Source: Bacteroidales bacterium (GTDB taxonomy: Bacteria > Bacteroidota > Bacteroidia > Bacteroidales > BM520). Taken from it: a DNA stretch of 64,000 nt. A program made the translations under genes and the position numbers. This document shows positions 23,805 to 64,000 of the stretch, piece after piece (position 1 is the first letter of the stretch; every line of letters starts with the position of its first letter). Below the pieces are notes generated by a model, which worked only from the letters and a program-made list of their open reading frames with translations, did no database searches and was not told where the DNA came from. The stretch covers positions 1-64,000 of the forward strand of contig JAEEQW010000014.1 in assembly GCA_016285515.1 (NCBI GenBank), written 5' to 3'.

Positions 23805-26630
23805 ATGACCAAGAAAATTACATTACTCGCAGTGTTGCTCATGCTTTCACTGACATCATTTGACCTGATGGCGAACAAATACGCCGTCTATTTTACCGAC
23901 AAAAACAACTCTCCTTACAGCATTAACTATCCTGAGGAATTTCTCTCGCAACGTTCAATAGCTCGCAGAGCAAGATTTGGCATTGCAGTCAACACACAGG
24001 ATCTGCCTGTAAATCCATCATACGTACAGCAGGTCACATCACTTGGTGCGACACTGATTCACACCAGTCGCTGGCTCAACTGTGCCATTGTTTCCTGCAC
24101 TCAAAATGTAGCAAACCAAATTGCAGGACTTGACTTTGTTTCTGAAGTCGTTTATGTCGCACCGGCCAATTCCAAAGAGCCGTCAAAGTTTGCGAACAAA
24201 TTGGATTCTCAGATAAAGCCGTTGGAAAAAGGCGCAAAAACTGACTATAACTATGGCAATGCATACGGGCAGATATCCCAGATAAATGGTATTCCTGTTC
24301 ACCAGCAGGGATATACCGGTCAGGGTGTTCTGATAGCAATTCTCGATGGTGGCTTCAACAATGCCAACAATGTTTCTGCCATGAGCCATATCTATAATGA
24401 AGGAAGATTGCTTTACACACAGGATGTGGTAAATCCGGGTGGGAGTGTTTATGCTTCCAACACAAGCAATCACGGTACAAATGTATTTTCTTGTATCGGT
24501 GCAAAATTACCCGGACAGATGGTTGGAACTGCTCCTGACGCAGAGTTTGCTCTTATCAGAACTGAAGATGGGGATACAGAATACCTGATAGAATGTTACT
24601 ACTGGGTAGTAGGCGCGGAGGCAGCCGACAGCATAGGGGCAGATCTTATAACCTCTTCATTGGGATATCAGTCATTCGATGATTCATCAATGGATTTCAC
24701 TCACGAAGACCTTGACGGTGAAACAACCCCTTCAAGTATTGGTGCCATGGCAGCAGTCGCAAGAGGAATTTTCGTTTCCGTCAGTGCTGGTAATACAGGC
24801 GATCAATCATTCCCATGGGTTTCAACGCCTTCAGATCCAACATCAGTTCTCTGCGTAGGCGCCTGCACTTCCTCCGGAAGCATCGCATACTTCAGCTCAA
24901 TAGGCCCTAATGGCGCCGGTGACCCTAAACCGGACGTACTGGCACTCGGCTACAACAGCACAGTCATCACGCCTTCAGGCAATGTATCAACAGCCAGCGG
25001 TACTTCTTTTGCATGTCCTATCACTTCAGGCATGATAGCATGTCTGCTTCAGGCGAATCCTTCAGTGACTCCAGAAGAAGTCCTGAACATCGTTAATGCA
25101 ACCGGCAACAGATACCCAGTCCATGACAATGCTTACGGATGGGGCATTCCTGATTATGCAGAAGCTCTCCAAGGTGTTCTCGCTATCGGCGACCTCAAAT
25201 TCAAGGGAATGGTAATACATGATGAATCAGGCAACAACGACGGTTACCTTAACCCTGGTGAAACTGCAAGCGTTGACGTTATAATCCTCAACAAAACCGA
25301 CAATGTGGTTTCCGATATCGTACTTTCTTTCGCAACAACAGATCCTTTCATAACACTGGATTCCGAGCCAATCGAGCTTGCCGACTTCACTGCCAACGAA
25401 ACACGTACCATTCCGAACGCATTTACAGTAACTCTTTCCGAAGACGCTATGCCTAAGTACTCTGCAAAAGTGGTAGGCACAATAGAATGCAACACCGGAA
25501 ACATAGTTTCCAATCTCGAAATAATCGCATATAATCCGTATCTCGTTCTCTATGCTACCGCCATAATCAATGATGACAACGGCGACAATATTCTTGACCC
25601 GGGTGAAACAGCCGACATGTATGTATATGTCCTCAATGAAGGCAACAGACCAGCAGTTAGTATGTATGGTGCGCTCTCATCCACTTCCGATCTGATTACA
25701 ATCAACACACCGTCAAAACTTTATGGTACAATTGCAGGTGACAATTTCCGGTATTCTTCTTTCAATATAACCTTAAGTGAAGATGCCGACCCATCAACCC
25801 TCGACCTTCCTTTCAACTTGGCATTGAACGGTTCAAACTATTCACAAAACATTGAATTCTCATTCCAAAACACCTGCAACATCATATTCAATCTTCACGA
25901 TTCTTACGGGGACGGCTGGAACGGTGCTAATTTAATTGCAACTTTCAGCGATAGCAGTCCATCACAGACTATGACCATAGCTTCAGGAAGTTCAGCAACA
26001 TATACGGTGGGCGTATCAACAGGAACAACTGTGACACTTACCTGGCAGTCAGGCAGTTGGGATTCAGAATGTTCATTCGACGTGACATACGAAGACGGCA
26101 CACAAATATATTCCATAAGTCATCCGTCTTCAGGTGTGATTACATCATTTGTCGTTTCATGCAGCGGAGGAAATCTTCCTGTTTACTGTCTTGCACCTGT
26201 AAATATTGATTCTGAACTCGGTGGCGACTACATCACTCTCACATGGGAGGCTCCTGAAGATGCAACTCCAAGCTACTATCTGATATTTAGGGATGGCGTG
26301 AACATTGATTTGGTTTACGGAACGACATATACAGATGAAGGACTTGATCCTGGGATTTACTGTTATTCAATTGAAGCTGATTATTCCGATGGCTGCCGTT
26401 CAGAACTCACCGAAGAAGTCTGCGTTGACCTGTATATTACTGGTATCATGGGCGATGCTGACAACAACGGAATCGTAAACGTAAGCGATTTAATGAGTAT
26501 GGTTAGTTATATCCTTGAAAGTGACCCGCATCCGTTCATCTTCAGCAACGCTGATGTCAATATTGATGGTGTAATTAATGTGTTTGACATCATCAAAACT
26601 GTAAACATTATTTTCAATAACGGCAAGTAA
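23805..26630 (+). CDS. S8 subtilisin-like protease with C-terminal dockerin-like pair
   Basis: A 941-residue exported serine protease. Signal peptide is about residues 1-23. The catalytic triad is readable: Asp181 (ILDGG), His223 (NHGTN) and Ser401 (SGTSFA). After the protease domain (to ~460) come two CARDB-like beta domains (~465-690), a 'DSYGDGWNG' domain (~700-790), a fibronectin-III-like domain (~800-880), and a final dockerin-like pair (GDADNNGIVNVSD; ADVNIDGVINVFD) that ends three residues after VNIIFN. There is no T9SS tail, unlike its tandem paralogue two bases downstream. Confidence 0.93.
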   Translation: MTKKITLLAVLLMLSLTSFDLMANKYAVYFTDKNNSPYSINYPEEFLSQRSIARRARFGIAVNTQDLPVNPSYVQQVTSLGATLIHTSRWLNCAIVSCTQNVANQIAGLDFVSEVVYVAPANSKEPSKFANKLDSQIKPLEKGAKTDYNYGNAYGQISQINGIPVHQQGYTGQGVLIAILDGGFNNANNVSAMSHIYNEGRLLYTQDVVNPGGSVYASNTSNHGTNVFSCIGAKLPGQMVGTAPDAEFALIRTEDGDTEYLIECYYWVVGAEAADSIGADLITSSLGYQSFDDSSMDFTHEDLDGETTPSSIGAMAAVARGIFVSVSAGNTGDQSFPWVSTPSDPTSVLCVGACTSSGSIAYFSSIGPNGAGDPKPDVLALGYNSTVITPSGNVSTASGTSFACPITSGMIACLLQANPSVTPEEVLNIVNATGNRYPVHDNAYGWGIPDYAEALQGVLAIGDLKFKGMVIHDESGNNDGYLNPGETASVDVIILNKTDNVVSDIVLSFATTDPFITLDSEPIELADFTANETRTIPNAFTVTLSEDAMPKYSAKVVGTIECNTGNIVSNLEIIAYNPYLVLYATAIINDDNGDNILDPGETADMYVYVLNEGNRPAVSMYGALSSTSDLITINTPSKLYGTIAGDNFRYSSFNITLSEDADPSTLDLPFNLALNGSNYSQNIEFSFQNTCNIIFNLHDSYGDGWNGANLIATFSDSSPSQTMTIASGSSATYTVGVSTGTTVTLTWQSGSWDSECSFDVTYEDGTQIYSISHPSSGVITSFVVSCSGGNLPVYCLAPVNIDSELGGDYITLTWEAPEDATPSYYLIFRDGVNIDLVYGTTYTDEGLDPGIYCYSIEADYSDGCRSELTEEVCVDLYITGIMGDADNNGIVNVSDLMSMVSYILESDPHPFIFSNADVNIDGVINVFDIIKTVNIIFNNGK

Positions 26631-51844: not shown

Positions 51845-54800
51845 CTATTGATTTATAATAAAATTAGCAATTGACATAACATCCATGACATCAATATTTC
51901 CATCAGAATTGAAATCTGCATTGTTATAATTAAACGGATTTGGCTCATTGCTCATAATATAAGCAACTACACTCGCAACATCAAGCACATTAACCACTCC
52001 GTCAGAATTGGCATCACCTTTCGTTCCGGATACAATAGCAGTAACGTTGACATCGTCTAGAACAACTCCGTAACCGTCATTGCATTCAGCCTCGAAAGCG
52101 ATATAATAGTTAGCAGTAACGTTTGGCAGTTCAATTATTCTGTTTTTCCAGGAAGCCACACTGTATTGGTAAGCGGCAAGCAGCTGCCATTCACCGTCTG
52201 TAGCATTTTTGTAATAAACTCTTAATCTGTCCTGATGACCATCGTGAACAGACTGGGCATGCCAGAAAGACAGAACAGGATCAACAGCACCATCAAGATT
52301 CATAACAGGAGAAACGAGTCTGACAACAGTCTCAGAACCGCTTATGAAAGCATTATAGCTGCCTGAATGAGCTTGCATAGGATGACTCTGCAAGCCACCG
52401 TGATTGGTAGTCCAAACGCCCTCACCGGAAACAATTTCCTGAGTCCAGCAATTAGGCAGATCCTCATCTTCAAAACCTTCATCATACGGATACGAACTGA
52501 CTGCAACATTACAGATATCAATAAACGGCTCAAATGCAGCAACGTATGAAAATTCGTAATTACCGGACAATGTTATGGTTGAATAGATTATTTCGCCAAA
52601 TGGCGCATTATCGCTCACATGAATTGTGAAAGCAGCAGTAGCGACTGCACCGTCATTATTGATGTCACCATATTCAACAGGATCAACTGTAATTACAGTT
52701 ACGTATGGATTTGATGTTGTATAAGTTCCATAGACGTTAAGAGCAGGATAGGAACCAATATTACGGAATGAGGCAGTGATGTTCAATGTCTTTCCAGGAA
52801 GCAGTTCACCTTCATAACCATAACTGACAAATTCAATCAAAGGTGCAGCCAAAGTAAGATCCATTTCATAACTCCATACCTCTCCGCCGCATGACATTGT
52901 CAATGTGCAAACTGCCACATGACCATCCGGAGCATCTCCTTCCACATGAACAGAAAGAATGTTTTCCAATACAACAGTATTATCTGATGCGATGTTTGCA
53001 ATCGTAGCCATTGGGATATCAAAAGTGACATACGGGTCGTCGGAAGATATTGAAACAGTAATATTTTCAGCATCTTCAACACCGACATTTCTGATAGTCA
53101 GGTCAAGTCCGTGAGATTCACCATAACTTAACACTTCTGAATTATAGCCCTGAAGAAGGAGGTATGGTCCTGATGGAGCTATACAGTTGATATTCTCGTA
53201 GATTGTTGTAGTGTTGAAACCAGTTACAGTAAGCAGAACTTCACCCGGAAGGAAGTCATTTTCGATTGAAACATAACCTGCTTCATCGGTTAATGCGGAA
53301 TAATATGCTCCGTCCTTGGAAATACATACGATAGCATTTTCAACCGGACCATCCTCGGTGGAGACCACTGTTTCGAAAGGAACACCAATAAGCATCAAAT
53401 CATTGGAAACAGAAATTTCAGCAGGAGTTGCTGTACGCAGTTGTACTGAAGCATCACCGAAAGTACACCATGTATGAGCTGTCTCAACATCGCTTGATGA
53501 TTGTGATTCAGTCAGCATCAGATTTAATGCATTAACAGCGACAGAGCCCCATGTAGTGCGCTGTTCCGTTGTATTGATACCGCTCTGGTCGGGATATTGG
53601 TTATAATCGAAGCCGCCTATAAGCACATCATAGAAATAGTCCTGACCACGCATTGGCGGCAGCCATGGCTGGCTGATGGAGGACATCCATACGACTATCG
53701 CTCCACCGTTTTCTTTTCTCAACCACGCTTCCGCAAAACAATCACCTGATCCGAACATTCCGTTGTCGCATGCAACTGAAGTGATAAAAGGCAATTTGGT
53801 TCCGTTAGAAAGGGAATTGACATTGGAATTGCTGAATCCTGTCGTTCCCCAACTGGTCTGTGAACCATGACCTGTGTATGCAATGGTGGATACACCGGCA
53901 TTGACTGCTGCTGTTACTCCGGATGCGCTTGCACTCGGGTCATATTCGGTATAAAATCCATCATAATTCAAAACAGGATTAAGTCTCTCATTATAAATCC
54001 TATTAACATGTGTATAGTCTATTTCACCGTCATCGCCAGGTCCCTGATTGGATGCAATGCCAAGCGCACTGCTGCGCCATGAATCTGTCATGTCAGGATT
54101 CTTTTCATAATTTATAGTCTTATTGACCTGAACTGTCAACTGAGAAACATTGTTGCATGAAAAACGTCCGACAATGATTTCAGGGAAATTATCGGTACCT
54201 ACCACACATCCGGCCTTTGGGTCAGCAGGCTCACCACTGACTGTGTTTGTCTTAACATCAGCCCAGTCACCTACGAGTTGGACATAGAGTATGTTCGGAT
54301 TTGCGTTATATTTCTGCTGAATTAAACTGGCAACGTTTGTACCGGTGGCAACCAATTCTTCCTCCACATTGTAACCCATTTCCTTTTTCCATGTGATATA
54401 TGGCTGAATTGCTTCCTGGTCACGGGATGTGTAGATGACAAGAATGTCACCGAACTGTGCAACCGGAAGATCCATACGACTCTTACTGTAATTGATGAAA
54501 AGACTTTGATACATGTCTTCCATCTCTCTTAAAGGAGTCAAATCAGTGTTATAAAGAGGATTAGTAGGAGTGTTGTTGTTTTCCAATAATTGAACAGTTA
54601 CATTGGAATATACACGTAATGTGTTAGTTGCAGCATTGTATCTGAAAGGATAAACACGTACTGCAGTACCTCTTACATCTCTGATAATATAAGGAGAATC
54701 AGCAGTTGCAAGATCTGAGGGATAGAATTCATCCACCAAAGATTCCGAAGCAATCTGGTAAGGAATGGTTTCAGGATTCTGGTTTCTGTAAATGACACCG

Positions 54801-55129
54801 CGGGATGGCACTAAAGGATAAGATAACTGATAATCCTTATATGTCGCATCAATTACATTGATGTCATAGTCCTTATCAGCTGCAATCTGAACGGATGCAC
54901 TGATGAAAGGAAGTTCTGCCCAGCCTTTCTTTTCAGTTACTGTTGTAACGTCAAAGACAATCTGGTTGAAAGTCACGCCATCAAAAGAAACTTCTTGTAT
55001 GTCCCATTTTCCAAGTTCAAATGAAACATTGTGCGAAGTTCCTGAAGATGTGTAATTAGTCTGGTATCCTTTTGCAAAGGAAATCAAACTTAAAACAATT
55101 AGCAGATTTGTAATAAGAAGTTTTTTCAT
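51845..55129 (-). CDS. Gingipain-like C25 cysteine protease with dockerin-like end (copy 1)
   Basis: A 1094-residue exported protease. Signal peptide ~1-20; a C25-type propeptide (~20-215, 'TVTEKKGWAELPFISASVQI'); catalytic domain with His421 in 'YTGHGSQTSWGTT' and Cys454 in 'SVACDNGMF'. Ig-like and CARDB-like modules follow, then a MAM/jelly-roll-like module ('CWTQEIVSGEGVWTTNHGG'), and a terminal dockerin-like pair (GDANSDGVVNVLDV; ADFNSDGNIDVMDV) ending at ANFIINQ. No T9SS tail. The DNA of the catalytic part is nearly the same as in copy 3 at 58586-62302. Confidence 0.94.
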   Translation of the reverse strand: MKKLLITNLLIVLSLISFAKGYQTNYTSSGTSHNVSFELGKWDIQEVSFDGVTFNQIVFDVTTVTEKKGWAELPFISASVQIAADKDYDINVIDATYKDYQLSYPLVPSRGVIYRNQNPETIPYQIASESLVDEFYPSDLATADSPYIIRDVRGTAVRVYPFRYNAATNTLRVYSNVTVQLLENNNTPTNPLYNTDLTPLREMEDMYQSLFINYSKSRMDLPVAQFGDILVIYTSRDQEAIQPYITWKKEMGYNVEEELVATGTNVASLIQQKYNANPNILYVQLVGDWADVKTNTVSGEPADPKAGCVVGTDNFPEIIVGRFSCNNVSQLTVQVNKTINYEKNPDMTDSWRSSALGIASNQGPGDDGEIDYTHVNRIYNERLNPVLNYDGFYTEYDPSASASGVTAAVNAGVSTIAYTGHGSQTSWGTTGFSNSNVNSLSNGTKLPFITSVACDNGMFGSGDCFAEAWLRKENGGAIVVWMSSISQPWLPPMRGQDYFYDVLIGGFDYNQYPDQSGINTTEQRTTWGSVAVNALNLMLTESQSSSDVETAHTWCTFGDASVQLRTATPAEISVSNDLMLIGVPFETVVSTEDGPVENAIVCISKDGAYYSALTDEAGYVSIENDFLPGEVLLTVTGFNTTTIYENINCIAPSGPYLLLQGYNSEVLSYGESHGLDLTIRNVGVEDAENITVSISSDDPYVTFDIPMATIANIASDNTVVLENILSVHVEGDAPDGHVAVCTLTMSCGGEVWSYEMDLTLAAPLIEFVSYGYEGELLPGKTLNITASFRNIGSYPALNVYGTYTTSNPYVTVITVDPVEYGDINNDGAVATAAFTIHVSDNAPFGEIIYSTITLSGNYEFSYVAAFEPFIDICNVAVSSYPYDEGFEDEDLPNCWTQEIVSGEGVWTTNHGGLQSHPMQAHSGSYNAFISGSETVVRLVSPVMNLDGAVDPVLSFWHAQSVHDGHQDRLRVYYKNATDGEWQLLAAYQYSVASWKNRIIELPNVTANYYIAFEAECNDGYGVVLDDVNVTAIVSGTKGDANSDGVVNVLDVASVVAYIMSNEPNPFNYNNADFNSDGNIDVMDVMSIANFIINQ
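53430..54470. repeat. Long near-identical DNA block, copy A
   Basis: This catalytic-domain region of C25 copy 1 matches 60600-61640 in C25 copy 3 at a constant offset of 7170 bases, with long runs of perfect identity and scattered substitutions and no indel noticed. Confidence 0.9.
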
Positions 55130-55158: not shown

Positions 55159-58100
55159 TTATTTATTCATAATTATGTTCACAATACCCATGACATCCAT
55201 AACATTAATCTCGCCATCACCATTCACATCGGCATTTGCGAAAATGAATATCTCATTAGAGCCATTAATGATATAGTTTACAACTGTCATAATATCGATT
55301 ACGTTTACAACGCCATTACCGTCAGCATCTCCTAACAAAGTGCCTAATTCACCAGTAATTTCAATATCGTCAAGGACAACGCCGTAACCACCATTGAGTT
55401 CAGCTTCGAAAGCTATATAATAATTTGATGAAGGGTTAGGAAGTTCTATTTCTCTCTGTTTCCAGTTTGCAATACTGAACTGATAAGTTGCCAAAAGCTG
55501 CCATTCACCATCAGTTGAGTTCTTATAATAAACACGGAGTTTGTCCTGATGTCCACCAAAAACTGACTGTGAATGCCAGAATGAGAGAACAGGATTTGTG
55601 ATATTAGAAAGGTCAAACATAGGTGTTACAAGTTTGACAGTAGTTGTGTCACCATAAACGAGAGCATTGTAACTTCCGCTGTGAGGATTATAAGGATGGT
55701 GCTGATAACCGCCACTCTGAACACTCCATTCAGCGTAACCGGAAACCACTTCCTGGTTCCAGCATCCTGCAAAATCTCCCTCTTCAAATCCTTCATTGTA
55801 AGGATATGCGCTTATTGCAACATTGCATATATCAATGAATGGGAAGAATTCACCATCGTATGAATAATTGTTGTCAGCAGTAATGGTAACCACCGAATTA
55901 ATGACTGTTCCGTAAGGAGCATTAGGGCTGACTGTAATTGAGAAAGCGCCAGTAGATGTTGCACCGGCAACAATTTCGCCGAATGACACAGGAGTAGTGG
56001 TGTTTACTGTAACGTATTCGCAGTCGGTGGTATATACACCGTAAGCATTATGTACGTCAGCATTACCATTATTTATGAAAGTAACAGTAAGGTTGAGAGT
56101 CTGACCTGGAAGGAGCTGACCTTCAATGCCATTGCTATAGACAGAAAGTGAAGGAGCAACTGTAAGGAAATAAAGACTGTATGTCCATGAGTCTTGACCG
56201 TCAGACATTGTTACAGTACAATTAACTTTGTGATTATCAGGAACAACAGGAGAAACGCTTACTGTAAATGCATCGGAAATGTTAACCACTGCACCAGGAG
56301 CGACATTACCATAGTTAGCGGTATTGTTTGTAAATGTGACATATTCATCTTCCGATGAAATGGTTGCCATAAGATTTACAGCTGTTTCAGAGCCCACGTT
56401 CTTAACTGCAAGACCGATAGTTCCGACTTCAGCATAATCAAACATACCGTCACCATTTGCATCGTTAATTGTGAACGAATTGCCAATCAAATAAGGGCCG
56501 TCAAGGGCTGCACACTCAACATCTTCGATGATAGGAGCGGTGTTAGGACGAGTGATGACAATTCTTGCCTGACCACCGGAAGTGATGACAGGGTTAAGAT
56601 TGACTGTAGCCAAACCGTCATTATCTGCAACAGCAGTTCCATAAAGCACACCGTCTTTGGAGATTGCCACAACAGAACCTGGAAGAGTTGTCACTTCATA
56701 GAAATCAACGCCTATAGGAACTATATCCATGTGTTCAGAGGTGTTGGTGGCTGGAACGCCGAAGTTATATGGCATGATGGAGCCGTCACCGAGGCAATGG
56801 TAAGACTGCCAGTAATAAAGAGGTGATGAGTGTGTACCGTAGTTGCCATCGTGAGCATAGCAGACTGCAAGGTTTCCAAGAAACACTATGGAATTGGTCG
56901 TATTGTATGTCTCTGTCATATCAATACCATCATAAACACCGGTAGAAGAGTTCTGTGGGGTAGGGGTCTGACTCATAACGTTGGTTGCGCCTACGCCCCA
57001 ATAGTAATCTTCATACCAATAAGTACTTGGACATGAACCTATATATGTATAAGCACCCTTATTCTGACCTCTAATCATGGCTTCTGCCAAACAAACACCG
57101 CTATAGCCGAAATCGGCAGCAAGGCAACAGTTACCTATTGCAAGAAAATATTTGTTGGCATTAGTAAGATTGTTGGCATCACTTACGCTGAAACTTGGTG
57201 AAGACCATCCGGTTTCACCACCATGAGCTGTATAATTGGCAACGGAAATACCAGTATTCATCCAGCTGTAGCAATTAGAATAAGATGTCAGATATTTGTG
57301 GACTCCTGTATAGCCATTATCAGCTGTGAAGTGATAAGCTTCCGCATAGTTGATGGCAGGTTGTCCAACCACTGGATTCCAATAACTGTCGGCACCAGCA
57401 ATAAGAAGTGCATCAGACAAATATGAAGGATCACATTCAAGTTTCTCGTAATTGAGAATCTTATTGATAAGGTTGGTCAGTTCAGCGCTTGTTGAAACAC
57501 ACATACGGCTACAGAACATTTCAGGGAAATAGTCGCCGTCAACGGAACTGTAATACAAATCTGTCACTTTTTGGGAAGAGCTTCCCGTTGTATTAGGAAT
57601 CTGTGGCGTATCTCCGACTAATACGAGGAAAGTAGGAGCCTGGTCGTTTTGAACACCAGTATTGTACTTGTCATAAACAAAATTTTTGATGTTGTTATAT
57701 GAAACACCTGTTTCAGATGTATAATGCACATCCATGTAGAAACCTTTCTCCAGTTTCCATTCGATCCATGGCGCAAGTTCCGATGCCCATGCATCAGGAG
57801 CTATGACAAGCATGTAAGTAGGAGTCTGATAAAGGTCAGGATGGTCATCATATACATCACGGTTGAACAGTTGTTTATATACAGGCTGGAAATAAATGCT
57901 GAAAGTTGACTCATAGAGCGACGTTGTAGCTTCTACATCAGCATTATCAAAAACAATCTCAAGTTCAATATTGTTTCTGACAATTATTCTATTTTCAGAA
58001 ACATCATAAACTACAGGGTTGACAGTAAGAGCACCGATGGTTACTCCACGCATGGTTCCCAACACCTGAACTGTAGCAATTTCTCTTTCATCAAAACCCT

Positions 58101-58545
58101 TCTGAGCGTATGCTGAAGCATTGTAAACGAATTTGATATCTTCCGGCTTTGCGTCCTTTTTTACTGAAGGCTGATGCGGATAAAGTGTCTCAATGCCATA
58201 ATCAGAAAGATTATACTGAGTTTCCGTATAATTTCTGACAACGACACGAGGGGTGGCACCCTGAGGGACAGCAATAAGCTGACGAGCTGCAGGAAGTTCT
58301 GGAGTACCATCCGCACCCGTAGGGTAGGTGTTAGGAATGGTGATTTGTGAAAAGTTCCCCTTTTCAGTGGAAATCAATGTGCTTTGGATAGCATCGAAAG
58401 AGAATGTCGCATCAAAGCTTTGCATTGTGGAGTTAGTGCATTCTTGTTTTGCACCAGTAGTGCTTAGCACAATAGTGCCCTTCTGTGCGTATGACATCAT
58501 GAAACAGAAAGCTGCCATTGATACTAATAATACTTTTTTCATCAT
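55159..58545 (-). CDS. Gingipain-like C25 cysteine protease with dockerin-like end (copy 2)
   Basis: A 1128-residue exported protein. Signal ~1-20; propeptide to ~240; catalytic domain with His441 in 'YTAHGGETGWSS' and a double cysteine Cys473-Cys474 in 'AIGNCCLAADFG', where alignment with copy 1 points to Cys474 as nucleophile. Its catalytic part is clearly diverged from copies 1 and 3, while the C-terminal MAM-like module ('CWNQEVVSGYAEWSVQSGG') and dockerin-like pair (GDADGNGVVNVIDI; ADVNGDGEINVMDV, ending VNIIMNK) resemble copy 1. Confidence 0.93.
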   Translation of the reverse strand: MMKKVLLVSMAAFCFMMSYAQKGTIVLSTTGAKQECTNSTMQSFDATFSFDAIQSTLISTEKGNFSQITIPNTYPTGADGTPELPAARQLIAVPQGATPRVVVRNYTETQYNLSDYGIETLYPHQPSVKKDAKPEDIKFVYNASAYAQKGFDEREIATVQVLGTMRGVTIGALTVNPVVYDVSENRIIVRNNIELEIVFDNADVEATTSLYESTFSIYFQPVYKQLFNRDVYDDHPDLYQTPTYMLVIAPDAWASELAPWIEWKLEKGFYMDVHYTSETGVSYNNIKNFVYDKYNTGVQNDQAPTFLVLVGDTPQIPNTTGSSSQKVTDLYYSSVDGDYFPEMFCSRMCVSTSAELTNLINKILNYEKLECDPSYLSDALLIAGADSYWNPVVGQPAINYAEAYHFTADNGYTGVHKYLTSYSNCYSWMNTGISVANYTAHGGETGWSSPSFSVSDANNLTNANKYFLAIGNCCLAADFGYSGVCLAEAMIRGQNKGAYTYIGSCPSTYWYEDYYWGVGATNVMSQTPTPQNSSTGVYDGIDMTETYNTTNSIVFLGNLAVCYAHDGNYGTHSSPLYYWQSYHCLGDGSIMPYNFGVPATNTSEHMDIVPIGVDFYEVTTLPGSVVAISKDGVLYGTAVADNDGLATVNLNPVITSGGQARIVITRPNTAPIIEDVECAALDGPYLIGNSFTINDANGDGMFDYAEVGTIGLAVKNVGSETAVNLMATISSEDEYVTFTNNTANYGNVAPGAVVNISDAFTVSVSPVVPDNHKVNCTVTMSDGQDSWTYSLYFLTVAPSLSVYSNGIEGQLLPGQTLNLTVTFINNGNADVHNAYGVYTTDCEYVTVNTTTPVSFGEIVAGATSTGAFSITVSPNAPYGTVINSVVTITADNNYSYDGEFFPFIDICNVAISAYPYNEGFEEGDFAGCWNQEVVSGYAEWSVQSGGYQHHPYNPHSGSYNALVYGDTTTVKLVTPMFDLSNITNPVLSFWHSQSVFGGHQDKLRVYYKNSTDGEWQLLATYQFSIANWKQREIELPNPSSNYYIAFEAELNGGYGVVLDDIEITGELGTLLGDADGNGVVNVIDIMTVVNYIINGSNEIFIFANADVNGDGEINVMDVMGIVNIIMNK

Positions 58546-58585: not shown

Positions 58586-61500
58586 TTATTGTCCAACAAT
58601 AATATTTACAATACCAATTATATCAAGTATGGAAATAACCCCATCGGAGTTGACATCGGCATTTTCGAAAATGAATGTGTCCGGATTGCCTTCCATCATA
58701 TAGTTGATAACTGTCATTATATCAGTGATGTTTACCAACATGTCACCATTAGCATCTCCCGTAATATCGGAAATCACACCGCCTTCGCATGCAAGTGTAA
58801 ATGCGAAACCTGGTTTGTTGACTGAACCGTCGGACGTGAATTTGACAGTCAGATCACCCAATGTTGAGACAACATCAATGGAACCAGTACCTGTATAAGT
58901 GCCTATAGCGTTTCCGGATGCGGATTCACCATCATATATATATATGTAATCCCAATTGTTTTCTACGTCATACGTGCCAGTTATATGAGCCATTGCTCCA
59001 TTGAGTCCCGGATGTATAACAGCAATAGCATTGCAGTTATTCGAATAGTTGGCATCAGGACCGCCGTTATCATAGAGCATACCTGCACATGTTGTTATTT
59101 CTATAGTTCCGCTTGTCGGCATATTGAACATATCGGCACATATACCTTCGACACATGCAATCTGACCAACACAACCGTCAGTGAATGTTACAACCACGCA
59201 GTACATGTATGTGCCATCCTGAAGACCTTCATCGGTATAGCTTGTAGCTGTTGTTGTGGCAATCAGCACATCATCCCTGTAAATGTCATAATGGTCAACG
59301 TCGCCCATTGGAGCAGTCCATGAAATGATCATGGTTCCGCCACCACCTGCTGTTGCAGAAAGATCCTTAACTCCGGCGCACTGAACAGAACAATCCATTA
59401 CAAATTCATACAAGAAACCTGCAGCAGGATGTGATTTACTATAAATTTCAACACCATTGTCGGCGTAAGAAACAACGAATGAGCATTCTGAGTCATAACT
59501 GCCTGACTGCCATGCAAGTGTCACAGTAGTACCAGAATTGACTTCGAGAGTAAACGATGCTTCATGACCAGAAGAAAACGTCAATGACTGTGACGGTGAA
59601 CCGTCACTGAAGGAAACGAGCAATGCCGCATTGTTCCATCCGTCACCGTATGTATCGGAAAGGTCGAACTGCAAGTTACAGCTATTGGAAATCGTAAAAG
59701 TACCTTCACCAGTAATATCGCCGTCATCTCCTGACAATGCCAAGGAGAAACCAATAACCTCAGTAAGAGGGCAATCATCGGATATAGTAACACTATATGT
59801 TGCTGTAGCAGCTCCATTTACAGCAATATCACCGAATGACTGAGTGGCCCCATTTATTGTTACATATTCACTTGAAGAGGTAAGTGTACCTTCAACATTC
59901 TCAACAAAATAGCTACCGATATTGAAGATTGAGACAACCAATTCGAGGGTTTCGCCTGCTTCGTATGAACCATTCCATGAAACCGAACTAAAAACAATAA
60001 CAGGTTTATGAGCTGTAATCGTGAATGAAGCAGTCCATGTCGTATCGGCATCCGTAGCGGAAACATTGAATGTGAACACGTGACCGTCCTCGATTTCAGG
60101 ACTGACTGTAATATTGAAGCCATCACCTGTTCCATAGTCATTGGCTGCAATTGCATCGAAAGTAACTGTTGCATTGTTTATTGCAAGTAATTCATCTTCA
60201 GATGAAATGGTTACTTCCACAGCTCCATTTGTAGGATAATTGCCTACGTTTTCAAGAGTAATTGACAAATTGGTTGTTTCTCCGTAACTGAGTATGCCGT
60301 CACCATCAAGCTGATAGGCTTCAAAGGTTAGGTATGCACCGTCAGGAGAGATACAATTGATAGTCTCATAAACAGTCTGCAAGTTGAAACCGGTCACGAC
60401 CAACAGGACTTCACCAGGTAAAATGGAATGCTCGATTTCGACAATACCGTTTTCATCGGTTGTACCTGAGAAATACTGTCCATTCTGAGAAATGCAGACA
60501 AGTGCATTGGCAACAGGGCCATCGGATGTTGTGATGGTGGTTGTATAAGGGACACCTATTAACATTACTGTATTTGACACTGTCACTTCAGCAGGAGTTG
60601 CTGTACGAAGTTGTACTGAAGCATCTCCGAAAGTACACCATGTATGAGCTGTTTCAACATCGCTTGATGTTTGTGATTCAGTCAGCATCAGGTTTGATGC
60701 ATTGACAACGATAGAGCCCCATGTGGTGCGCTGTTCCGTTGTATTGATACCGCTTTGGTCGGAATATTGGCTATAATCGAAGCCGCCTATAAGCACATCA
60801 TAGAAATAGTCCTGACCACGCATTGGCGGCTGCCATGGCTGGCTGATGGAAGACATCCATGCGACTATCGCTCCACCGTTTTCTTTTCTCAACCACGCTT
60901 CAGCAAAACAATCACCTGACTCGAATGTTCCGTTGTTGCACGCAACTGAAGTGATAAAAGGTAACTTGGCACCGTTGGAAAGGGAATTGACATTGGAATT
61001 GCTGAACCCTGTCGTTCCCCAACTGGTCTGTGAACCATGACCTGTGTATGCAATGGTGGATACTCCGGCATTGACTGCTGTTGTTACGCCGGATGCACTT
61101 GCACTCGGGTCATATTCGGTATAAAATCCATCATAATTCAAAACAGGATTAAGTCTCTCATTATAAATCCTGTTAACATGGGTATAGTCTATTTCACCAT
61201 CATCGCCAGGTCCCTGACTGGATGCAATACCAAGCGCTTTGCTTTGCCACGAACTTGTCATGTCAGGATTCTTTTCATAATTTATAGTCTTATTGACCTG
61301 AACTGTCAGCTGAGAAACATTGTTGCATGAAAAACGTCCGACTGCGATTTCAGGGAAATTATCTGTACCTACCACACATCCAGCCTTTGGGTCAGCAGGC
61401 TCACCACTGACTGTGTTTGTCTTAACATCAGCCCAGTCACCTACGAGTTGGACATAGAGTAAGTTCGGATTTGCGTTATATTTCTGCTGAATTAAACTGG

Positions 61501-62302
61501 CAACGTTTGTACCGGTGGCAACCAATTCTTCCTGCACGTTGTAACCCATTTCCTTTTTCCATGTGATATATGGCTGAATTGCGTCCTGGTCGCGGGATGT
61601 GTAGATGACGAGAATGTCACCATGCTGTGCCATCGGGAGATCATAACGACTCTTGTCGAAATTAAGGAAAAGACTTTCATAAACGCCAATCATTTCTCTG
61701 ACAGGAGTTGTGTTTTCCCTGAGAAGAGGGTTGGTTGCAGGTTCGTTGTTTTCAACAAGCTGCACGGTGATTTCGGAATATACACGCAAAATGTTGGTGG
61801 CAGCATTGTATTGGAAAGGATAAACGTGAACTGAAGTGCCTCTGACATCTCTGATAATGTATGGTGCATCAGCGACTGCGATGTCAGAAGGGTAGAAGCT
61901 GTCAACGATTGAAGCAGGGTCAATCATGTAAGGTATATCGTCAGGATTCTGATTCCTGTATATAATTCCACGTGAAGGTAATAAAGGATATGACAACTGA
62001 TAATCCTTATAACTTGAAGATGATATCTTCAAATCAACATTCTTTTGAGCAGGAAGTTGAATGGCAGCACTGACGAAAGGAAGTTCTGCCCAGCCTTTCT
62101 TCTCAGTTACCAGGGAACCAGAGAATTCAATGGAATTGTAAGTGACTCCATCGAAAGTGGATTCGTCAAGGCTCCATTTGTCTAAAGTAAATGTAATTTG
62201 ATGTGTGTCTGTAGCAGGTTGGTTGTATGAAACACTTACTCCTTGTGCGAAAAGGGTAGTACAACTCACTATCACTGCAATTGTTGTAAATATTTTTCTC
62301 AT
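58586..62302 (-). CDS. Gingipain-like C25 cysteine protease with CUB and dockerin-like end (copy 3)
   Basis: A 1238-residue exported protease. Signal ~1-19; propeptide; catalytic His422 (YTGHGSQTSWGTT) and Cys455 (SVACNNGTF). After CARDB-like domains come a 'DTYGDGWNN' domain (~875-965), a fibronectin-III-like module (~970-1055), a CUB-like domain (~1060-1175, with 'YDVENNWDYIYIYDG'), and a terminal dockerin-like pair (GDANGDMLVNITDI; ADVNSDGVISILDI) ending VNIIVGQ. Its C-terminal half is nearly the same as the partial gene at the right edge, and its catalytic half the same as copy 1. Confidence 0.94.
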   Translation of the reverse strand: MRKIFTTIAVIVSCTTLFAQGVSVSYNQPATDTHQITFTLDKWSLDESTFDGVTYNSIEFSGSLVTEKKGWAELPFVSAAIQLPAQKNVDLKISSSSYKDYQLSYPLLPSRGIIYRNQNPDDIPYMIDPASIVDSFYPSDIAVADAPYIIRDVRGTSVHVYPFQYNAATNILRVYSEITVQLVENNEPATNPLLRENTTPVREMIGVYESLFLNFDKSRYDLPMAQHGDILVIYTSRDQDAIQPYITWKKEMGYNVQEELVATGTNVASLIQQKYNANPNLLYVQLVGDWADVKTNTVSGEPADPKAGCVVGTDNFPEIAVGRFSCNNVSQLTVQVNKTINYEKNPDMTSSWQSKALGIASSQGPGDDGEIDYTHVNRIYNERLNPVLNYDGFYTEYDPSASASGVTTAVNAGVSTIAYTGHGSQTSWGTTGFSNSNVNSLSNGAKLPFITSVACNNGTFESGDCFAEAWLRKENGGAIVAWMSSISQPWQPPMRGQDYFYDVLIGGFDYSQYSDQSGINTTEQRTTWGSIVVNASNLMLTESQTSSDVETAHTWCTFGDASVQLRTATPAEVTVSNTVMLIGVPYTTTITTSDGPVANALVCISQNGQYFSGTTDENGIVEIEHSILPGEVLLVVTGFNLQTVYETINCISPDGAYLTFEAYQLDGDGILSYGETTNLSITLENVGNYPTNGAVEVTISSEDELLAINNATVTFDAIAANDYGTGDGFNITVSPEIEDGHVFTFNVSATDADTTWTASFTITAHKPVIVFSSVSWNGSYEAGETLELVVSIFNIGSYFVENVEGTLTSSSEYVTINGATQSFGDIAVNGAATATYSVTISDDCPLTEVIGFSLALSGDDGDITGEGTFTISNSCNLQFDLSDTYGDGWNNAALLVSFSDGSPSQSLTFSSGHEASFTLEVNSGTTVTLAWQSGSYDSECSFVVSYADNGVEIYSKSHPAAGFLYEFVMDCSVQCAGVKDLSATAGGGGTMIISWTAPMGDVDHYDIYRDDVLIATTTATSYTDEGLQDGTYMYCVVVTFTDGCVGQIACVEGICADMFNMPTSGTIEITTCAGMLYDNGGPDANYSNNCNAIAVIHPGLNGAMAHITGTYDVENNWDYIYIYDGESASGNAIGTYTGTGSIDVVSTLGDLTVKFTSDGSVNKPGFAFTLACEGGVISDITGDANGDMLVNITDIMTVINYMMEGNPDTFIFENADVNSDGVISILDIIGIVNIIVGQ
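58740..59625. repeat. Duplicated C-terminal domain DNA, copy A
   Basis: The region coding for the 'GDGWN', fibronectin-III and CUB-like modules of C25 copy 3 matches 63117-64000 at an offset of about 4377 bases with high identity. Confidence 0.85.
60600..61640. repeat. Long near-identical DNA block, copy B
   Basis: Partner of 53430-54470 (offset 7170). Similarity weakens outside the block, for example in the propeptide and accessory domains, more than expected for a simple whole-gene duplication. Confidence 0.9.
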
Positions 62303-62374: not shown

Positions 62375-64000
62375 TTATTTCTGATAAATCAATTTTATCG
62401 ATTTGGAAGTGATTCCGTTACCCTTTACGGTTACGAAATAAATGCCGTTGTTGATTGAACCCGGTTTCCAGACATAGCTGCTTGAGTTGGAAACATCAAC
62501 TGAATTGATGGTCTGTCCATATACATTGGTGATTACAAGCTGAGCATTGGAAGTTGGTTCAAAGTTAATTGTTACGCTTTCATTGAACGGGTTAGGATAA
62601 ACATTGAAATTACTGTCAACATCGTTGATTCCGAGGTAATTCTTTATCAGGACTTCGCAGCCGGAAACTTCAGCAAGCTGAGTGTTAGCATCATTCAAAG
62701 TAGCATCACCAACATAGAATAATGGAGTGCGTCCTTCAGGAATCGATGCACCTTCAAGGCTGTATCCTATAATGGTATATTTTCCATCTTCAATCTTTGT
62801 TGCAGTTTGGAAATCATACAGAGCTTCAAGTGAAGTTACTGTTGATTCATCGTTAATGTCAAAGTTGAACATGAAAGCTGTAATTTCAACTGGAGTACTG
62901 ATATAGAAAACACCGTCTTCGATAATGTAATATGCTGTTTCAGATTCACCGCAATCATCGTATTTGTTATTGAAGATAATGTTGACAATCAACTGAACAT
63001 CAAGGATATTGATTATACCATCAGCATTAACATCAGCATTGTCGAATATAAAATCGGCAGGATTCTCACCCAACATATACATTATAGCTACAGTAATATC
63101 GAGAACATTGACTGTAAAGTCGCCATTAGCATCTCCTGGAATATCGGAAACCATACCGCCTTCGCAGGCAAGTACAAATTCGAAACCTGATTTGGTGACT
63201 GAACCGTCGGACGTGAATTTGACAGTCAGAGCTCCCAATGTTGAAACAACATCAAGGGTACCTGTGCCTGTATAAGTTCCAATAGCAGTTCCGGATGCGG
63301 ATTCACCATCATAGATATAAATGTAATCCCAATTGTTTTCAACTTCATACGTACCAGTTATATGAACCATCGCTCCATTGAGTCCCGGATGTATAACAGC
63401 GATGCCATTGCAGTTATTCGAATAGTTGGCATTAGGACCACCGTCATCATAAAGCAAACCTGCACATGTTGTTATTTCTAAAGTTCCGCTTGTCGGCATA
63501 TTGAACATATCGGCACATACACCTTCGACACATGCTGTCTGACCAACGCAACCGTCAGTGAATGTTACAACCACACAGTAAACATAAATGCCATCCTCAA
63601 GACCTTCATCGGTATAGCTTGTAGCTGTTGTTGTGGCAATCAGCACATCATCCCTGTAAAGGTCATAATGGTCAACGTCGCCCATTGGGGCACTCCATGA
63701 AATTTCCATAGTTCCGCCACCGCCTGCTGTTGCAGCAAGATTCTTAACTCCGGCGCACTGAACTGTGCAATCCATTATGAATTCAAACAGGAAACCTGAA
63801 GAAGGATGTGAGATACTATATATTTCAATTCCGCTGTCAGCGTATGAAACAACGAATGAGCATTCTGAGTCATAACTACCTGACTGCCATGTAAGTGTCA
63901 CATTAGTACCTGAGTTAACTTCGATAGTAAATGATGCTTCATGACCGGAAGAGAACGTTAATGACTGTGAAGGTGAACCGTCACTGAAGGAAACGAGCAA
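62375..64000 (-). CDS. Surface protein with CUB, dockerin-like, cohesin-like segment and T9SS tail (5' partial)
   Basis: The frame is open through the right edge, so the N-terminus (possibly a protease domain as in copy 3) is not seen. Visible order: 'GDGWN'-type domain end (~1-75), fibronectin-III-like (~80-165), CUB-like (~170-285), dockerin-like pair (~288-346; GDANGDFTVNVLDI, ADVNADGIINILDV), a ~105-residue beta-rich segment ('YISTPVEITAFMFNFDI', 'IIGYSLEGASIPEGR') that resembles a cohesin-type sandwich, and a T9SS type A tail (~455-541, 'FNVYPNPFNESVTINF'). The only protein here with both dockerin and T9SS tail. Confidence 0.88.
   Translation of the reverse strand: MLVSFSDGSPSQSLTFSSGHEASFTIEVNSGTNVTLTWQSGSYDSECSFVVSYADSGIEIYSISHPSSGFLFEFIMDCTVQCAGVKNLAATAGGGGTMEISWSAPMGDVDHYDLYRDDVLIATTTATSYTDEGLEDGIYVYCVVVTFTDGCVGQTACVEGVCADMFNMPTSGTLEITTCAGLLYDDGGPNANYSNNCNGIAVIHPGLNGAMVHITGTYEVENNWDYIYIYDGESASGTAIGTYTGTGTLDVVSTLGALTVKFTSDGSVTKSGFEFVLACEGGMVSDIPGDANGDFTVNVLDITVAIMYMLGENPADFIFDNADVNADGIINILDVQLIVNIIFNNKYDDCGESETAYYIIEDGVFYISTPVEITAFMFNFDINDESTVTSLEALYDFQTATKIEDGKYTIIGYSLEGASIPEGRTPLFYVGDATLNDANTQLAEVSGCEVLIKNYLGINDVDSNFNVYPNPFNESVTINFEPTSNAQLVITNVYGQTINSVDVSNSSSYVWKPGSINNGIYFVTVKGNGITSKSIKLIYQK
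62640..62960 (-). other. Cohesin-like beta-sandwich segment (within the right-edge gene)
   Basis: About 105 residues between the dockerin-like pair and the T9SS tail. 'TPVEITAFMFNFDI' followed by 'IIGYSLEGASIPEGRTPLFY' follows the recalled 'TPIAGFQF...GFSxxGxxIPxG' pattern of cohesin-superfamily domains in Bacteroidota secreted proteins. The fold call is by pattern only. Confidence 0.4.
63117..64000. repeat. Duplicated C-terminal domain DNA, copy B
   Basis: Partner of 58740-59625; continues past the right edge of the window, so its full extent is unknown. Confidence 0.85.

Follow-up and report, generated by a model that had tools for sequence, protein, structure and literature searches.

The protein at the edge of the window

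The locus raises the question of what a cohesin-like segment does when it stands directly behind a dockerin in one and the same protease. The window, a stretch of 64,000 nucleotides, covers the first part of contig 2 (68,180 bp) in a Bacteroidales genome of 2.58 Mb, and the gene at its right edge encodes a protein of this kind. A reading made from the sequence alone had proposed that the segment anchors the dockerin-bearing proteases encoded nearby, and had offered as an alternative that it pairs with the dockerin of its own chain.

The reading frame within the window (62375..64000, - strand) covers the last 541 aa of a C25 gingipain-like protease, whose complete gene extends to contig position 66757 (G000:C2:62375-66757) and encodes 1460 aa. 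In order, the protein contains a signal peptide, a C25 propeptide, the C25 peptidase, an Ig-like domain, CUB, a dockerin, the segment in question (called X here), and a T9SS tail. The dockerin, which is type I (PF00404, Dockerin_1; 62978..63139, -; Pfam E 5.4e-10), has both calcium loops intact (DANGDFTVNVLD and DVNADGIINILD), and its part of an AlphaFold (AF2) model superimposes on 6kgc_B with a Z of 11.0 and 1.3 Å over 59 residues. X, a reduced cohesin-fold module defined by profile, hhalign, and AF2, lies at about 62633..62953 (-; profile match 62645-62953). It is followed by a T9SS type A C-terminal sorting domain (Por_Secre_tail; 62378..62611, -), which is matched by both PF18962 (E 6.7e-8) and TIGR04183 (E 5.6e-7). 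Thus, the Pfam matches for dockerin and tail and the profile match for X bear out the order and position of the three elements given by the sequence-only reading. Since the genome also encodes the T9SS translocon protein SprA (E 9e-164), sorting domain and translocon are both present, and the protease is a predicted T9SS type A cargo.

Several dockerin proteins without this arrangement are encoded in the window. Three C25 proteases, at 58586..62302, 55159..58545, and 51845..55129 (all -), and an S8 subtilisin-like protease at 23805..26630 (+) have a C-terminal dockerin and no T9SS tail; the first of these is a predicted client of scaffoldin cohesins. A further protein, cut by the contig end (1..810, +), also has a C-terminal dockerin. 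Among the dockerin-terminal proteins of the whole genome, the full-length ones inspected have plain signal peptides, and an obvious lipobox is absent. (It should be added that 58586-62302, 62375-64000, and L048 4878-6179 are three consecutive genes with near-identical FN3-CUB-dockerin ends, which suggests a recent duplication of the tail cassette.)

Segment X and the cohesin family

Direct searches with the Pfam cohesin model do not recognize X: PF00963 gives no match on the right-edge protein at E 1, and no match at X in a whole-genome search even at E 10. Copies of X have 22-40% identity to the window copy. A profile built from the 8 X paralogs of the genome scores 114-138 bits per copy and only 13.7 bits at the next-best site. 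By this measure X is a genuine sequence unit and not a product of chance.

Profile-profile comparison and structure prediction connect this unit to the cohesins. An X profile of 27 sequences (the genome copies plus relatives, some of the rows from other genomes having been positioned by eye behind the dockerin prior to inclusion) was aligned by hhalign with a profile of 66 cohesins from this and related genomes, giving a probability of 95.7, P 9e-9, and a score of 49.5 over 86 collinear columns. Decoys (an InlB repeat, the T9SS tail, and the dockerin) reach a probability of at most 2%, and the real score compares with a maximum of 18.4 for 60 column-shuffled X profiles and with 11.7 for the reversed profile. 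When X sequences from other genomes are used alone, the probability against the cohesin profile is still 94.6%. An AF2 model of the dockerin plus X chain has a mean pLDDT of 81.4 and a pTM of 0.75; with a two-sequence input the dockerin had been poor and the pTM 0.48, and the higher value was obtained when dockerin rows were added. In model 2, X (residues about 65-171) aligns with cohesin 4dh2_A with a Z of 10.3 (2.9 Å, 104 aligned residues) and with 4ums with a Z of 10.1. Among the matches listed, those with a Z of 8 or more are solved cohesins or dockerins only, except for a single BBSome chain (Z 8.0), which is the first non-cohesin in the ranking; this is the outcome of the AlphaFold check that the sequence-only reading had proposed. 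In a comparison of the X profile with PDB sequences a cohesin is not found, and the only match, to YcnI, is weak (E 0.4). Non-cohesin sandwiches (YcnI, CBM2) were considered for X and set aside, as they rank lower structurally, and both models and the profile comparison place cohesins first.

Together, profiles and models indicate that X has a cohesin fold and a common ancestry with the cohesins. Independent support for this ancestry comes from five relatives (G142, G111, G048, G232, and G135) in which the slot behind the dockerin is occupied by a full cohesin. The by-eye call of a cohesin thus stands as to fold and ancestry, but what it describes is a reduced, Pfam-negative form. From the alignment, which also provides the strand assignment, X appears to have become shorter at the N-terminal strand and in the region that separates strands three and five. 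In addition, four positions are strongly conserved among the 66 true cohesins (Q32, 94%; D34, 88%; H58, 92%; and R71, 85%), and their conservation suggests that they contact the dockerin. X as a whole has lost D34, H58, and R71, and the right-edge copy has M in place of Q32. X is a reduced rather than an ordinary cohesin.

Dockerins and cohesins of the genome

The genome as a whole encodes 37 dockerin proteins and 24 true cohesins (full-length or near full-length). The dockerin proteins fall into 28 that are dockerin-terminal, with the dockerin no more than 12 residues from the C-terminus and with no T9SS tail, 8 that end in dockerin, X, and tail, and 1 with an N-terminal dockerin. The right-edge protein had been singled out as the only one to combine the three elements; this is correct for the window, but eight such proteins exist in the genome. 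X is found between dockerin and tail in all 8 dockerin proteins that have a T9SS tail and in none of the 29 others (probability by chance 2.6e-8).

The true cohesins are found in several kinds of protein. Two T9SS-tailed scaffoldins, ScaA (C25:211473-218876; 8 cohesins) and ScaB (C25:219021-222740; 5 cohesins), are encoded side by side (L049 5477-16741, on contig G000:C25), directly downstream of a gene for a protein ending in dockerin, X, and tail. A third T9SS-tailed scaffoldin, of 3777 aa, is encoded on contig C18 and has 7 cohesins. At least 2 cohesins lie in a streptopain-like C10 protease that is cut by the end of contig C45 (L086 3873-6605), apparently an enzyme doubling as a scaffold. 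An adaptor on contig C47 has 1 cohesin at one end and the dockerin, X, and tail at the other. Finally, a lipoprotein-like protein of 178 aa (contig C19; L051 9771-10307), which adjoins a subtilisin-like protease ending in a dockerin, has 1 cohesin and looks like a minimal outer-membrane anchor. The cohesin profile of the genome matches the solved cellulosomal cohesin 5n5p with an E of 9e-8.

Among the dockerin-bearing proteins are peptidases of the C25, S8, C10, and M14 families, a peptidyl-arginine deiminase, and an esterase-like protein, and adhesin-like domains also occur. (The deiminase, with its C-terminal dockerin, is of the Porphyromonas type; L053 5986-7605, contig G000:C39.) With multi-cohesin scaffoldins and many dockerin enzymes, the predicted system is cellulosome-like; no match to glycoside hydrolase families was found among the domains of the dockerin cargo, that is, none of the plant-wall cargo that characterizes a cellulosome proper. 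A tree of the 24 cohesins gives no well-supported specificity classes. Four dockerins (C25:206001, C47:32636, C47:30232, and C52:85309), three of which belong to proteins with X, are unlike the rest in having the small residues VG, VA, or IG at the putative cohesin-recognition positions, and may form a second specificity class.

Related loci in other genomes

Within the same order, X is found in 9 of 295 genomes and cohesins of this kind in 23 of 295. At a threshold of E 0.001, two genomes from the same genus are devoid of both dockerins and cohesins, and G003, G220, and G122 are same-genus genomes without the system. Such a scattered occurrence suggests that the system was gained horizontally or lost repeatedly.

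Where the system is present, its gene order recurs. Eight loci from the same order were picked by their cohesin matches alone, and in 8 of 8 the scaffoldin gene has directly upstream of it a gene whose product ends in a dockerin plus either a full cohesin or an X-like domain, usually with a T9SS tail. An exception in the same order is G146, in which the gene upstream of the scaffoldin stops at the dockerin. Loci from other classes were scored only after the X profile had been built; the same upstream-gene pattern is seen in G418, G625, G551, G466, G494, G500, and G577, is weak in G586, and is absent from G372, while G667 has dockerin, cohesin, and tail within one protein. A full cohesin in the slot behind the dockerin, where a genome has one, may well act in trans as a binder of dockerins. 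When the dockerin-X-tail region is aligned against the genome collection, the matches are mostly T9SS tails, together with one close relative, L161, from water-buffalo abomasum, which has a protein 93% identical over 1528 aa to the X-bearing protein at C25:243626.

One genome is of special use here. G023 encodes a subtilisin (S8) protein ending in dockerin, X, and tail, and yet a search of this genome for cohesins is negative up to E 10, and the dockerin of this protein is the only credible one. G023 could have lost its scaffoldin.

The role of X beside its dockerin

Which partner, if any, does X have? We consider it somewhat probable that the dockerin and X act as a pair in cis, with X as a cap or companion, and that scaffoldins are the receptors of the dockerin-only proteases. 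The strict adjacency of the two domains, the high pTM of the two-domain model (an indirect sign of packing), and the presence of such a protein in G023 all favor a role in cis, so that the alternative offered by the sequence-only reading is the one that fits best. In such a mechanism, X and the preceding dockerin would form a fixed dyad in type IX-exported proteins. The protease would be exported by means of its own T9SS tail and its dockerin would plug into true cohesins, while X would pack on that dockerin, stabilizing or capping it, and would space it from the tail. The dockerin-only proteases, for their part, would be received by ScaA, ScaB, the 3777-aa scaffoldin, the adaptor, the C10 protease, and the one-cohesin lipoprotein, and the whole system would be a surface-bound proteolytic counterpart of the cellulosome.

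Another possibility is that X descends from a cohesin but binds nothing, and that it is now a passive element between the dockerin and the T9SS tail, a spacer or an aid to folding. The weak conservation among the X copies and the fact that X always precedes a tail are both consistent with this. However, the fold has been kept in several classes of the phylum, strictly next to a dockerin, and the T9SS-tailed scaffoldins do without X, and we regard a mere spacer as rather unlikely.

The idea that gave rise to this work, that a T9SS-anchored protease displays X on the surface and X captures the dockerin-only proteases encoded alongside, has fared less well and is now distinctly unlikely. It draws on the fold and homology of X, on the surface-anchoring tail of the right-edge protein, and on the four dockerin-only protease genes of the window, three of which lie next to one another; it is also true that X keeps most of the cohesin strands and may in this way have acquired a new trans specificity. 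Against it, the 24 true cohesins encoded elsewhere in the genome offer ample sites for the dockerin-only proteases, so that X is not needed as their anchor. Furthermore, X has lost the region of the first strand together with the conserved Q, D, H, and R, goes undetected by the Pfam cohesin model, and in this genome always adjoins a dockerin. For 28 dockerin-terminal proteins, a single reduced domain on one protease would make a poor receptor.

Two further readings are improbable. Head-to-tail chaining, in which the dockerin of one such protein engages X or a cohesin in the following one and thereby extends or branches the surface complex, would suit the adaptor with its cohesin at one end and its dockerin and X at the other, and also the five relatives with a full cohesin in the slot, but X in this genome lacks the conserved cohesin residues and the proteins that carry it are mostly enzymes or adhesin-like rather than repeating linkers. 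It is similarly doubtful that X serves as a lock, occupying the dockerin in the periplasm until the T9SS-tailed proteins are exported, while dockerin-only enzymes, which have a signal peptide, are carried across the outer membrane by the T9SS-tailed scaffoldins on which they have been loaded.

Comparison with known systems

Several features of the system recall the clostridial and ruminococcal cellulosomes: multi-cohesin scaffoldins, type I dockerins at the C-termini of enzymes, an adaptor with cohesin and dockerin, and surface attachment. In contrast to those systems, peptidases make up most of the cargo here, a T9SS tail or a lipoprotein provides the anchor, and the dockerin of the tailed proteins is followed by an additional, reduced cohesin. 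Type II and III cellulosomes contain X-dockerin dyads, in which a beta-sandwich companion is fixed beside the dockerin. The comparison is one of how the pair may work, given that their X module precedes the dockerin whereas X here follows it; to our knowledge, moreover, their X module is not a relative of cohesins, whereas X here is one. The gingipains of Porphyromonas, which are T9SS type A cargo, share the C25 catalytic domain, the propeptide, and the CTD with the protease described here; we know of no gingipain that bears a dockerin.

The closest published precedent that we have found is the cellulosome-like complex of Ca. Stygibacter (Cloacimonadota), in which C25 and S8 peptidases carry dockerins at their C-termini and a CTD-tailed scaffoldin serves for surface attachment (PMC8542988). 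It differs in belonging to another phylum and in having one scaffoldin, and the text consulted makes no mention of a cassette of dockerin, reduced cohesin, and T9SS tail (PMC8542988). The planctosome, a cohesin/dockerin complex of freshwater Planctomycetes, likewise has a dockerin plus cohesin adaptor and a proposed role in polypeptide degradation (PMC6461901); however, its anchor is a lamin-tail-domain protein instead of T9SS, and its peptidase families are different (PMC6461901). Our search of the open-access literature found no description of the dockerin, reduced cohesin, and T9SS cassette or of such a system in Bacteroidales, a result that does not by itself prove novelty.

Significance

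Two published papers point in opposite directions: one study did not find cohesins or dockerins, in agreement with other Bacteroidetes genomes (PMC5831590), while the Ca. Stygibacter report describes a complex built from them (PMC8542988). The gut Bacteroidales genome described here has both in quantity, much of the cargo consisting of proteases, and the scaffoldin gene pair is seen repeatedly within the phylum Bacteroidota. The question is also sharpened as to how dockerin-ended enzymes that have no outer-membrane sorting tail get to the surface. If the lock reading were true, the pairing of dockerin and cohesin would decide both assembly and export. The cassette of dockerin, reduced cohesin, and T9SS tail provides a testable case of a receptor domain that may have become its own ligand's partner in cis.
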